Shown in pieces: positions 254 through 4,215 of a DNA stretch of 27,680 nt. The notes beneath the pieces are model-generated. The model was not told where the DNA came from, ran no database searches, and saw only the letters and a program-made list of their open reading frames with translations. Source of the stretch: a virus; the IMG/VR virus record IMGVR_UViG_3300040801_002160, positions 1 through 27,680 of that record; one strand, written 5' to 3'. Numbering within the stretch: position 1 is the first letter of the stretch; every line of letters starts with the position of its first letter. Both the position numbers and the translations under genes were made by a program.

Positions 254-529
254 ATGGGAAAGCGGAAAGCGGTCGCGCGTGACGCATACGAGCCCGAGAG
301 CGTCCGGCGAGAGAAGCTGAAGAAACGCGCCGTCGCGGCGGCGGCGAGCTATCGGCGCACGGGCCATCTGCTGGGCGTCTACGACCGCCCCGACGTGATC
401 GGCAGCATGATCGCGCAGGGGCTGGTCTCGGTGGACGAGATGCGCAGCATCGGCGCGCGGCTGCCGAAGGGGGCAACGGCGCGGATCCGTCAGACCTCGC
501 GCAATTGGGCGACGAGGGCGGGGGGATGA
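254..529 (+). CDS. Small basic phage protein of unknown function
   Basis: This 91-residue protein starts at ATG 254. The start is chosen because GGAGGG at 241-246 sits 7 bases upstream. The same frame stays open back to 104, but that part merely reads through the repeat cluster and gives repetitive arginine/serine-rich sequence. The N-terminal half is strongly basic (MGKRKAVARD..., then a KLKKR patch). The C-terminal half, containing YDRPDVIGSMIAQGLVS, looks like a compact helical segment. I do not recognise the family. The stop overlaps the ATG of the NusG-like gene (ATGA at 526-529), so the two are probably translated together. A DNA-binding role is possible from the charge and location, but this is inference. 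Confidence 0.6.
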   Translation: MGKRKAVARDAYEPESVRREKLKKRAVAAAASYRRTGHLLGVYDRPDVIGSMIAQGLVSVDEMRSIGARLPKGATARIRQTSRNWATRAGG

Positions 530-1221
530 CCGAGCGGCGCGCGCCCAATTGCGCCAACGGCCCGCGGCCGACCATGGCCGCCCGGCGCCGGCGCAATCCC
601 GGCCAGACGCTGGCCGAGGCCGACGCGCTGGCGCGGCGTCATGTGCGGCCCTGCCGGGGGGATGGCGACTTCTGGGTGTTGACCGGGCCGCTGGCCGAGC
701 GGCGCTGGTGGATGCTGGCGGTGACCGCCGGGCGGGAGGACGTCGCGCTGCAGGTGCTGGCGGCGCGGGCCCGGGTCCAAGGCGTGGATGCGGTGGCGCT
801 GTGCCCGGCGCGAAGCGTCTGGCGCTATCCCAGCCGCTACGCCACCGAGAAGCGGCGGTATTCGTTTGCGGAGGTTCCCGGGTTGATGCTGCTGGGCCTG
901 CGCGGGCCGATGGTGATCGAGCGCTGGGCGGTGGGGCCCGTGCGCGGGGTGCTGCGCCCGCCAGGCGGCGACGGGCGGCTGGGCGAGCGGGCGGTGGCCA
1001 CGCTGGCGCGGTTCGGAGAGCGGGCGGCCGATTGCGCGGCGCGGATGATCTCCGGCGCCGAATACGGTGTAGGCGATCGGGTCGAGATCGACCGCGGGCC
1101 GCTGGCCGGGATGGCCGGGGTCGTGGAGGCGGTCGGGCCGCGTACGGCGCGCGTGGTTTGCGCGCTGCTGGCGATCGGGGCGGTCGAGGCGCGGCTTGAT
1201 CATTTGCGGCTTGCATCGTGA
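526..1221 (+). CDS. NusG/RfaH-like transcription antitermination factor
   Basis: This 231-residue protein has the two-part layout of NusG paralogs. Residues about 59-145 resemble an NGN domain, with WWMLAVTAGRED at the start and EVPGLMLLGL followed by WAVGPVRGV near the end, where NusG has its PGYV and gV segments. Residues about 180-231 are a KOW domain, with YGVGDRVEIDRGPLAGMAGV and a closing VEARLDHLRLA matching the VxVxxGPFxxxxGxV and end pattern of NusG. The first 40 residues are a basic extension. Known members of this superfamily bind the RNA polymerase clamp and change pausing or termination. The ATG at 526 overlaps the upstream stop; a TTG at 505 in frame is a weaker choice. Being encoded just before the late operon, it is a good candidate for its specific antiterminator, but the target is not shown by sequence. 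Confidence 0.8.
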   Translation: MTERRAPNCANGPRPTMAARRRRNPGQTLAEADALARRHVRPCRGDGDFWVLTGPLAERRWWMLAVTAGREDVALQVLAARARVQGVDAVALCPARSVWRYPSRYATEKRRYSFAEVPGLMLLGLRGPMVIERWAVGPVRGVLRPPGGDGRLGERAVATLARFGERAADCAARMISGAEYGVGDRVEIDRGPLAGMAGVVEAVGPRTARVVCALLAIGAVEARLDHLRLAS

Positions 1222-1246
1222 CTGCGGTTGCGCGTACAAGCTTCGC

Positions 1247-1267
1247 CAGTCGCCCGGTGGGCGATTG
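1247..1267 (+). other. Hairpin in the leader after the NusG-like gene
   Basis: CAGTCGCCC (1247-1255) can pair with GGGCGATTG (1259-1267) around a GGT loop, giving nine pairs including one G-U. It begins 25 bases after the NusG-like stop. No T-run follows, so it is not a standard intrinsic terminator. It could be a Rho-type or antiterminator-controlled site. Confidence 0.45.
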
Positions 1268-1320
1268 CAGGGGCGGGATCAGTAGGCGGCGCAGGCCGGA
1301 CCGAACGCGAAGCCCCGACA

Positions 1321-1359
1321 CCGCCACACGCGGCGGAGGGCGCCCGACATGCTCGGGTG
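1321..1359 (+). other. Two further hairpins upstream of the small membrane gene
   Basis: CCGCC (1321-1325) pairs with GGCGG (1332-1336), and CGCCCGA (1341-1347) pairs with TCGGGTG (1353-1359) with one G-U. With the hairpin at 1247-1267 they make a structured 161-base gap (1222-1382) that has no convincing gene. A 10-base direct repeat, ATTGCAGGGG, lies at 1264-1273 and 1367-1376. A copy of CGCGTACAA, also present in the repeat cluster at 148-156, lies at 1231-1239. Confidence 0.4.
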
Positions 1360-1382
1360 CCGCTGCATTGCAGGGGTCGTAA

Positions 1383-1679: not shown

Positions 1680-2005
1680 CGGCGCTGCCGCCGCGACTGC
1701 GGGAGTCTCCGCCGCGGCTGAAGCCTGCCGTTGAGACGTTGCGACGTGCTCGGGTCGCCATGCATGCCACGGCGCGGTGGGAGAGACTGCGGCTTGAGAC
1801 GTTCCGCGTCGACGGTTGGCGCTGTCGGATGTGCGGTCGGCTGGTGCGGCTGGGACGTGAGGCAGGCCCAGCGCAGGCCATCGGCGATCACATACGATCG
1901 CACGATGGCGACCCCGAACGGTTCTTCGACCCGGAAAACGTCCAGACGCTGTGCAAGGCCTGCCACGACGGACCGAAGCAATCGGCCGAAAAGGGGGGCG
2001 GATAG
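1676..2005 (+). CDS. HNH endonuclease next to terminase
   Basis: The core has two zinc-knuckle-like pairs, CRMC (in WRCRMCGRL) and CKAC (in LCKACHDGPKQ). The HNH residues lie between and within them: DH in AIGDHIRSHDGD, N in PENVQTL, and the final H of CKACH. HNH proteins encoded beside the terminase are known to assist cos cleavage and packaging in HK97-like phages. The frame is coding-like upstream of the first standard starts (ATG 1760, TTG 1739). It reads RLTALPPRLRESPPRLKP, the proline-rich N-terminus typical of this family. No ATG, GTG or TTG exists between the in-frame stop at 1652-1654 and 1739, so I place the start at CTG 1676, which overlaps the upstream TGA (CTGA). A shorter product from 1760 would still contain the whole HNH core. 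Confidence 0.8.
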   Translation: MTALPPRLRESPPRLKPAVETLRRARVAMHATARWERLRLETFRVDGWRCRMCGRLVRLGREAGPAQAIGDHIRSHDGDPERFFDPENVQTLCKACHDGPKQSAEKGGG

Positions 2006-2080
2006 ATTCCTTGAAGATCGGGATCTTGAATGACCCGCGCACCCTCACGCGCAGAATTTTTTCCGGTGGAGGCAAGTTTC

Positions 2081-2521
2081 GTGGCTGATACGCTTGCAGA
2101 AGACGACGTCGATCTGTTTGGCGCGCCGGTCACGCAGCTTCGTGAGCGATGGGGCCGTCCGTCGTTCTCAAAAACTACGGAAAATCAACAGACTGTGGTT
2201 TCGCTGCGTGGGGCCGGCTGGTCTCAGGATCGGATTGCGGCGTATCTCGGATGCGACGCGAAGACGCTGCGCAAACATTTTTCCCGCGAGCTGAGGTTGG
2301 GCGTCGAATACCTTGAGGGCATGGCGCTAGAAGTTCTCGTCGCGAAGATGCGCGCGGGTCATGTCGGTGCGGCGAAAGAGGTCTGGGCTTACGCCCAGCG
2401 TGTCAAGGCGGCCGAGAAGCCGACCGAGACCGAGCCGATGGTCGGCAAGAAGGAAGCGGCGCGGCAGGCCGCCGAGGCAGTGCACCGTGACAGCGGATGG
2501 ACCGGACTGCTCAAGCACTAG
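2081..2521 (+). CDS. terS: Terminase small subunit
   Basis: This protein binds phage DNA at the packaging start and hands it to the large terminase. The GTG at 2081 is preferred because GGAGG at 2068-2072 sits 8 bases upstream, giving 146 residues. The frame also has an ATG at 2030 (163 residues), whose extra N-terminus lacks a good ribosome binding site. The opening LRERWGRPSF followed by TENQQTVVSLRGAGWSQDRI and LGCDAKTLRKHF is the helix-turn-helix pattern of the small terminases seen in alphaproteobacterial HK97-like phages. The C-terminal third is helical and charged. It lies directly before terL and overlaps it by 25 bases. Confidence 0.8.
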   Translation: MADTLAEDDVDLFGAPVTQLRERWGRPSFSKTTENQQTVVSLRGAGWSQDRIAAYLGCDAKTLRKHFSRELRLGVEYLEGMALEVLVAKMRAGHVGAAKEVWAYAQRVKAAEKPTETEPMVGKKEAARQAAEAVHRDSGWTGLLKH

Positions 2522-4215
2522 ACTGGAGCTTCGCGCAGCCGGATTGGAAGGAACGCCTGGCGGCGGGCCGCAGTCTGACGCCCGATCTTCCGCTTGACGA
2601 AGGCGAGGCTGCGCGGGCCGCGGCGATCTATGATCGCCTCCGCCTTCCCGACGTCTCAGGGCAGCCGACGCTGAAAGAAGCGGGAGGAGACTGGTTTCGC
2701 GACATTGTCCGCGCGATTTTCGGGTCTCTCGATCCGCACAGCGGCGTGCGACGCGTCGCGAATACGGTCGTGCTGGTCCCGAAGAAGAACAGCAAGACCA
2801 CCAACGCCGCGGCGCTGATGCTGACGGCGCTGCTGATGAACCGGCGCCCGAACGCGCAGTTCGCGCTTTTCGGGCCGACGCAGCAGATCAGCGACATCGC
2901 GTTCGCAGCCGCGCGAGGCATGATCGAGGCGGACGACGACCTGAACGCGCTGTTCCACGTTCAGGAGCACCTGAAGCGCATCACGATGCGGACGGGACCG
3001 GGCCGAGGCGCGTCGCTGCGGGTCACGACATTCGACGCGAAGGTGGCGACCGGCGGAAAATACGCCGGGTGGCTGCTGGACGAGGCCCATATTCTCGGCT
3101 CCATGGCGCAGGCCGACCGTGTCGTCGGACAGCTACGCGGGGCGCGCGTCGCCGTTCCCGAGCAGTTCGGCGTCGTGATCACGACACAGTCGGACGAAAG
3201 GCCGGCGGGTTTTTTTCGCCGGGAGCTTCAATATGCGCGGCGTGTTCGCGATGGCGCTGTCCAGAACGCAGACCTTCTGCCGGTGCTCTACGAGTTTTCG
3301 GAGGATGTGCAGCGGGATGAGGCCAAGCCGTGGCGCGACCCTGCGCTGTGGCCGATGGTCCTGCCGAACCTAGGCCGCTCGGTCAGCATCGAAGTGCTGC
3401 GGCAGGAATATGCCGCAGCCGTCGAGAAGGGCCCCGAAGAAGAACGACGCTGGGCATCCCAGCACCTCAATATCGAGATCGGCCTTGCGTTGCACGCCGA
3501 CAGATGGGTCGGCGCCGACTATTGGCCGAAGGCTGCTGAGCCGATCGGCTTTGATCGCTTGGTCGATTCAAGCGACGTATGCGTTGCGGGGATCGACGGC
3601 GGCGGCGATGACGACCTGATGGCGCTGGCCGTTCTGGGGCGTTGCGCGACGACGCGGGTGTGGCGGGCATGGGTTCACGCCTGGGCGCAACCGGAGGTTC
3701 TGGAGCGCCGCAAGGAAATTGCGCCGCGACTGCGGGATTTCGCCGCTGATGGCGACCTCACGATCTGCGAAAGCCCTAACGACGACATCGACGGTGTCGC
3801 CGCCCATGTTGCGAAACTGGCGCTGGTCAAGCGCCTCCCCAATCGCGGCGCGGTGGGGCTGGACCCTGCGGGGGTTGGGGCGCTGGTCGACGCGCTCAGC
3901 GCCGAAGGCCTGACGGACGATCAGATGGCCGCTGTGCCGCAAGGCTGGCGTTTGACCGGCGCAATCTGGACTGCGGAGCGAAAATTGAAGGACGGCACTC
4001 TGCGCCACCTCGATCAGCCGCTCGCTGCATGGGCCGTGGGCAACGCCAAGACCGAACAGCGGGGTAACGCCGTGAGCATCACAAAAGCCACCGCAGGCAA
4101 GGCGAAAATTGATCCTTTGGTCGCGTTGCTGAACGCTGTGCAGCTGATGTCCCGCAACCCCGCGCCGGCGCAGGCGTCCAGTTACCTGACACGCCGCAAG
4201 CTGGTGGTGGCTTGA
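2497..4215 (+). CDS. terL: Terminase large subunit
   Basis: This 572-residue ATPase-nuclease pumps DNA into the prohead and cuts it. A Walker A-like VPKKNSKTT lies at residues 94-102, in the variant form usual for the HK97 group. Walker B is GWLLDEAHIL (191-200, with D195 and E196). The C-terminal nuclease has the RNase H-like acidic residues in CVAGIDGGGDDD (about D367) and in KIDPLVALLNAV (about D539). Length and motif spacing are normal and no break is seen. The ATG at 2497 overlaps the small subunit gene. The end overlaps the portal gene by one base (TGATG). The nearby HNH gene suggests cos-type packaging, although no cos site could be identified by eye. Confidence 0.95.
   Translation: MDRTAQALDWSFAQPDWKERLAAGRSLTPDLPLDEGEAARAAAIYDRLRLPDVSGQPTLKEAGGDWFRDIVRAIFGSLDPHSGVRRVANTVVLVPKKNSKTTNAAALMLTALLMNRRPNAQFALFGPTQQISDIAFAAARGMIEADDDLNALFHVQEHLKRITMRTGPGRGASLRVTTFDAKVATGGKYAGWLLDEAHILGSMAQADRVVGQLRGARVAVPEQFGVVITTQSDERPAGFFRRELQYARRVRDGAVQNADLLPVLYEFSEDVQRDEAKPWRDPALWPMVLPNLGRSVSIEVLRQEYAAAVEKGPEEERRWASQHLNIEIGLALHADRWVGADYWPKAAEPIGFDRLVDSSDVCVAGIDGGGDDDLMALAVLGRCATTRVWRAWVHAWAQPEVLERRKEIAPRLRDFAADGDLTICESPNDDIDGVAAHVAKLALVKRLPNRGAVGLDPAGVGALVDALSAEGLTDDQMAAVPQGWRLTGAIWTAERKLKDGTLRHLDQPLAAWAVGNAKTEQRGNAVSITKATAGKAKIDPLVALLNAVQLMSRNPAPAQASSYLTRRKLVVA

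Follow-up and report, generated by a model that had tools for sequence, protein, structure and literature searches.

A NusG-family protein in the place of Q: a candidate late antiterminator paired with leader RNAs in alphaproteobacterial phages

Can a phage NusG paralog fill the slot that Q holds in lambdoid phages and turn on the late genes? The question arises from an IMG/VR virus record, IMGVR_UViG_3300040801_002160. The window, meaning the whole stretch of 27,680 bases analysed here, is probably a genome fragment. A sequence-only reading had placed a NusG-like gene directly upstream of a non-coding gap, at 526–1382 overall, and this span is correct. The gap is 161 nt long, a length that hinges on the uncertain boundary of the small ORF that follows. 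The packaging-head-tail-lysis operon that had been claimed 3' of the gap is also there. Its genes all lie on the plus strand, in the order hydrophobic ORF, HNH, TerS, TerL, portal, protease, capsid, tail and endolysin, with the tail genes assigned from gene order alone. Coordinates are given in Table 1.

We think it probable that the NusG paralog is a late antiterminator, loaded at a leader RNA and sitting in the Q slot. In the mechanism that we propose, NusG would be expressed from the distal end of the early operon. Host RNA polymerase would take it up while transcribing a structured leader just 3' of nusG, and the modified polymerase would then pass one or more terminators and transcribe the long late operon. 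The cis unit of the Rhodobacteraceae relatives would comprise a late promoter over the nusG stop codon, an RNA that folds from its first nucleotides and, in many loci, a terminator. Leader binding by phage NusG and antitermination are both inferred. A phage NusG in place of a Q-type antiterminator has good support from relatives, through position, leader RNA, promoter and terminators; the gap in the window itself, however, fits neither of our two leader models. For the window, the analysis establishes the protein family, its position and its clade, and by position alone the gap would be the leader of the late operon.

Table 1. Features of the nusG locus and the start of the late operon in the window.
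Feature	Position	Strand	Evidence
NusG/Spt5-family protein, 231 aa; NGN-like core ~58–150, KOW ~180–231	526..1221	+	phrog_6386, weak KOW, AF2/Foldseek, tree
Weak candidate promoter TTGCAT-N18-TACAAG, spanning the nusG stop codon	1211..1240	+	7/12 consensus bases
Non-coding gap, candidate late-operon leader	1222..1382	+	Same position as conserved leaders in relatives
Hairpin 1, CAGTCGCCC-GGT-GGGCGATTG	1247..1267	+	Sequence, fold; within chance
Direct repeat ATTGCAGGGG, 10 nt	1264–1273 and 1367–1376	+	Sequence
Hairpin 2, CCGCC-ACACG-CGGCGG	1321..1336 (approximate limits)	+	Sequence; within chance
Hairpin 3, GGCGCCCGA-CATGC-TCGGGTGCC, 9 bp, not followed by a U run	1339..1361	+	Sequence
Small hydrophobic ORF, 98 aa	1383..1679	+	Codon-position GC as in other genes; weak PHROG matches
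HNH endonuclease	1739..2005	+	Profile matches
Terminase small subunit	2030..2521	+	Resembles L072 ORF in TerS place
Terminase large subunit, opening the packaging/head block	2497..4215	+	Profile match

In alphaproteobacterial phages, the phrog_6386 NusG family is at the early/late boundary irrespective of terminase type. NusG is annotated before the terminase, at the end of the early genes, in Mesorhizobium phage vB_MseS-P1, Sinorhizobium phage phi3LM21 and Nostoc phage Nsp-JY10. It lies at the end of the record in Rhizobium phage PPF1, and two Bradyrhizobium phages carry it in the slot without naming it as such. Three further proteins in the same slot (RcapNL_0001, Pthi1_p23 and the first ORF of Mae-JY02) were not recognised as NusG. 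A single family without a PHROG match fills the pre-terminase slot of RcapNL (L013:139–897), Pthi1 (L015:3028–3786) and Mae-JY02 (L071:1–771), and is a candidate alternative late regulator. The words NusG and antitermination are absent from a 2017 paper on LM21 prophages, and the open literature searched yielded no work on a NusG acting as late regulator in phages, or on its mechanism.

Homologs unlinked to late operons and lacking a conserved leader had been named as what would speak against a functional link, and conservation of the gap across relatives as a check. Two lineages turned out the opposite way, with a conserved, covarying leader RNA just downstream of nusG. The class I loci are Rhodobacteraceae prophages, gathered with a profile of one NusG group. 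Directly 3' of nusG they hold a conserved non-coding block with a four-helix structure of 21 pairs (24 aligned sequences). Scored partly on the alignments from which it was derived, this structure has 94.8% standard pairs, compared to 37–49% with partners slid and 78% with the 3' letters shuffled. Covariation is 0.511 against 0.222 for shuffles, a control that related sequences inflate, and at 12 pairs both partners have changed. Such compensatory changes on both helix sides indicate selection on RNA pairing.

An RNA model of the class I leader (R1) detects it in the searched NusG loci of the class I group. R1 does not detect it in seven related terminase loci that yielded no NusG, some of which start at a contig end. 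A strict scan of 296 genomes of the family found the leader in three already known prophage genomes only, one copy each. The terminase that follows is of the lambda gpA type in L031 and of other types elsewhere. At L042:6819–6890, a tRNA-Met (CAT) gene lies between the leader and an HNH gene.

A promoter of the form TTGAC-N18-TAnnnT stands 5' of 26 of the 27 class I leaders. The TGA within TTGACA usually serves as the stop codon of nusG. From the end of the -10 box to the first R1 model position, further 3', there are about 7–11 nt. Two Salipiger loci (L036 and L039) have genes inserted between nusG and the promoter, 1.3 and 3.1 kb, and both retain promoter and leader beside the late operon despite this cargo. 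This argues that the cis unit consists of promoter, leader and late operon, with nusG acting in trans. The cargo (L039:6938–8756 and L036:6721–7503) includes, in L039, the candidate defence system PDC-M07A/B; the interval between nusG and the late promoter may be a hotspot for cargo that lies outside the late operon.

Class II comprises 18 leaders, mostly of Rhizobiales type. Their structure combines a long-range helix with a long hairpin that carries an internal loop, and includes AGUGC..GCUAUGA. Here 95.8% of cells pair, compared to 24–47% when slid, again in a structure drawn partly from the same alignments. The class I and class II models do not cross-match, and neither leader RNA has a match in Rfam. 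Like the class I leader, the class II leader was not found in the seven related loci without a detected NusG. The pattern used for class I found no promoter of that form before class II leaders.

Terminators called by a crude rule follow 12 of the 27 class I leaders and 15 of the 18 class II leaders, compared to 4–5% of random places in the same loci. By this simple definition, 15 class I leaders have no clear terminator. In Bradyrhizobium phage ppBeUSDA76-1 (L075:2800–3234), the scan finds three successive intrinsic terminators 3' of the NusG-like gene and 5' of the late operon; inspection by eye suggests a fourth.

The product of 526–1221 in the window is a divergent member of the NusG/Spt5 family. 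Its frame is intact from ATG 526 to TGA 1221; it shares bases with the stop of the ORF before it and has coding-type GC by codon position. The phrog_6386 profile, 'transcription antiterminator', matches residues 58–216 (2.9e-8). A Pfam search of the protein gave no NusG match, only a weak KOW match, while Pfam NusG matches the other 34 of 35 aligned sequences. Of the two domains proposed earlier, the C-terminal KOW domain is supported by weak sequence matches at residues 182–211, by an hhalign match to class II (probability 75%) and by the structural model. An NGN domain may be present, as suggested indirectly by the phrog_6386 match and by the structural matches of the model.

Structure prediction, proposed as a check on the domains, gave a moderate AF2 model (mean pLDDT 61.8), with the C-terminal KOW barrel at 75–90. 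Searched with this moderate model, Foldseek returned exclusively NusG/Spt5 proteins as top PDB matches (E 3.5e-7). The C-terminal domain of the model fits that of E. coli NusG at 1.5 A over 54 columns. It is predicted as beta strands in this single prediction, with which fold switching is compatible.

Placed in a tree alongside NusGs of phages and hosts, the window protein joins the Rhodobacteraceae class I clade with support 0.996, on a long branch. A tblastn search against phages, plasmids, viral and genome contigs and 385 alphaproteobacterial genomes returned no close relative, and a search through the ORF upstream of nusG found none either. The NCBIfam LoaP model scores 17.5 bits on the protein, below its cut-off of 125.

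Three smaller observations concern the neighbouring DNA. A perfect 13-nt inverted repeat at 499–554, GCGCAATTGGGCG/CGCCCAATTGCGC with its arms 30 nt apart, surrounds the nusG start codon at 526; it could regulate nusG translation, and the local fold has a z of only -0.96. Further upstream, 5' of the ORF preceding nusG, the word CGAACTGTACGCC occurs twice within 115–172 (at 115 and 160) with partial copies in between (GAACTGTTCGG), an operator-like arrangement to judge from the letters. The HNH frame is still open over 1667–1738 and encodes IGRLTALPPRLRESPPRLKPAVET, whose likeness to the N-termini of related HNH proteins (MGRLK...) suggests a gene start near 1667. This extension has no ATG, GTG or TTG, and the ATC at 1667 is a possible start.

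The gap itself was said to hold three hairpins and a direct repeat. All can be drawn (Table 1), but the gap is no more stable than chance: its fold has z = -0.17 against dinucleotide shuffles, with 88 of 200 shuffles equally stable. The 10-nt repeat is only mildly unusual: 19 of 500 shuffles hold one as long. Terminator scans found no intrinsic terminator in the gap. R1 scores at most 1.3 bits there and the class II model (R2) 0 bits, so that the models lend no support to the window's own hairpins as the leader element. Sequence similarity to class I leaders in local alignment is marginal, 8 of 300 shuffles attaining its mean score. A class I-like fold drawn by eye (GCTT 1240/AGGC 1284, GGCG/CGCC, GAACGCGA, CGACAC) was rejected, as neither the covariance model nor local alignment supports it. 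Scanned for sigma-70 promoters, the window gave no strong one, and the promoter-like pair at the nusG stop is placed like the class I promoters, with a weak match.

A wider reading has, in our view, an even chance of being right. It holds that the late switch of a NusG plus a large leader RNA, with the class I promoter over the nusG stop, arose at least twice in alphaproteobacterial phages, as cognate coevolving pairs, and that the window would hold a third pair.

Lambda Q is no relative of NusG, and its loading site is a stretch of DNA with paused sigma. The Q/pR' system is alike in having a regulator at the early/late junction, a promoter just after it, an early terminator and a long late operon; it differs from the phages described here, whose regulator belongs to the NusG family and goes with a covarying leader RNA. 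The put RNA of HK022 is likewise a structured RNA near the transcript start that acts on polymerase. It requires no phage protein, whereas the leader RNA here is tied to phage NusG. RfaH in the strict sense uses the ops element on non-template DNA and has a fold-switching, autoinhibited alpha-helical C-terminal domain. In the phage relatives, by contrast, the conserved element is an RNA structure. The RfaH, ActX, UpxY and TaA groups have the NGN-KOW architecture that is also predicted here, and like them the phage proteins are expected to act on one or a few long operons; as far as the available text of the two sources goes, no phage late-operon group is described among them (PMC7819879, PMC7593976).

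A promoter, leader, terminator and long operon 3' of a NusG paralog form a processive antitermination layout, and LoaP is the closest known case. In Bacillus velezensis, this NusG paralog serves long operons, where a leader hairpin is essential and is followed by an intrinsic terminator, at which LoaP antagonises NusA (PMC12691694). Shared with the phage systems are the paralog, the long operons and the 5' leader RNA with terminator. The phage systems differ in serving a late operon, in alphaproteobacteria, with larger multi-helix leaders. GafZ also provides alphaproteobacterial antitermination of a phage-like late cluster, that of the Caulobacter GTA; it is reported to act in complex with NusG and is thus a separate protein, not NusG itself (PMC11150451).

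The NusG in the Q slot might instead act mainly against Rho, or by coupling ribosome and polymerase in the style of RfaH. It would then be recruited by a non-template DNA element, and the leader would stabilise the RNA or mark where it is processed. A review describes action through Rho and translation coupling for members of the NusG family (PMC7819879), and neither the window gap nor over half of the class I leaders has a clear terminator. We nevertheless consider this unlikely, given the compensatory helix changes, which point to selection on RNA pairing, and the strong enrichment of terminators 3' of the leader.

Linkage also differs from binding, and two leader classes that do not cross-match accompany related proteins. 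The leader could thus be an attenuator or riboregulator that binds some other factor, such as a host protein or a Nus complex, with NusG as a neighbour that modulates elongation, for example by displacing host NusG. Yet the leader is seen only with phage NusG: the strict scan of 296 genomes found it in the three known prophage genomes alone, and it is missing from the seven loci where no NusG was detected. We rate this explanation as quite improbable. The window gene could, finally, be a decayed or repurposed NusG without a leader, and the gap an ordinary GC-rich spacer. The unremarkable fold of the gap, its lack of a match to R1 or R2, the missing Pfam NusG match and the long branch would all fit. 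Against this, the 231-aa frame is intact with coding-type GC, the position is conserved and KOW is retained, and we rate this reading as very improbable.

If phage NusG is indeed a late antiterminator loaded at a leader RNA, phages would add a branch to the specialised NusG paralogs, and Q would have been naturally replaced by a member of the universal NusG/Spt5 family of elongation factors. Two structured RNA families, both absent from Rfam, would be gained. Since the NusG/leader pairs are compact and separable, they would make the RNA targeting of a NusG paralog to one operon testable outside Bacillus.
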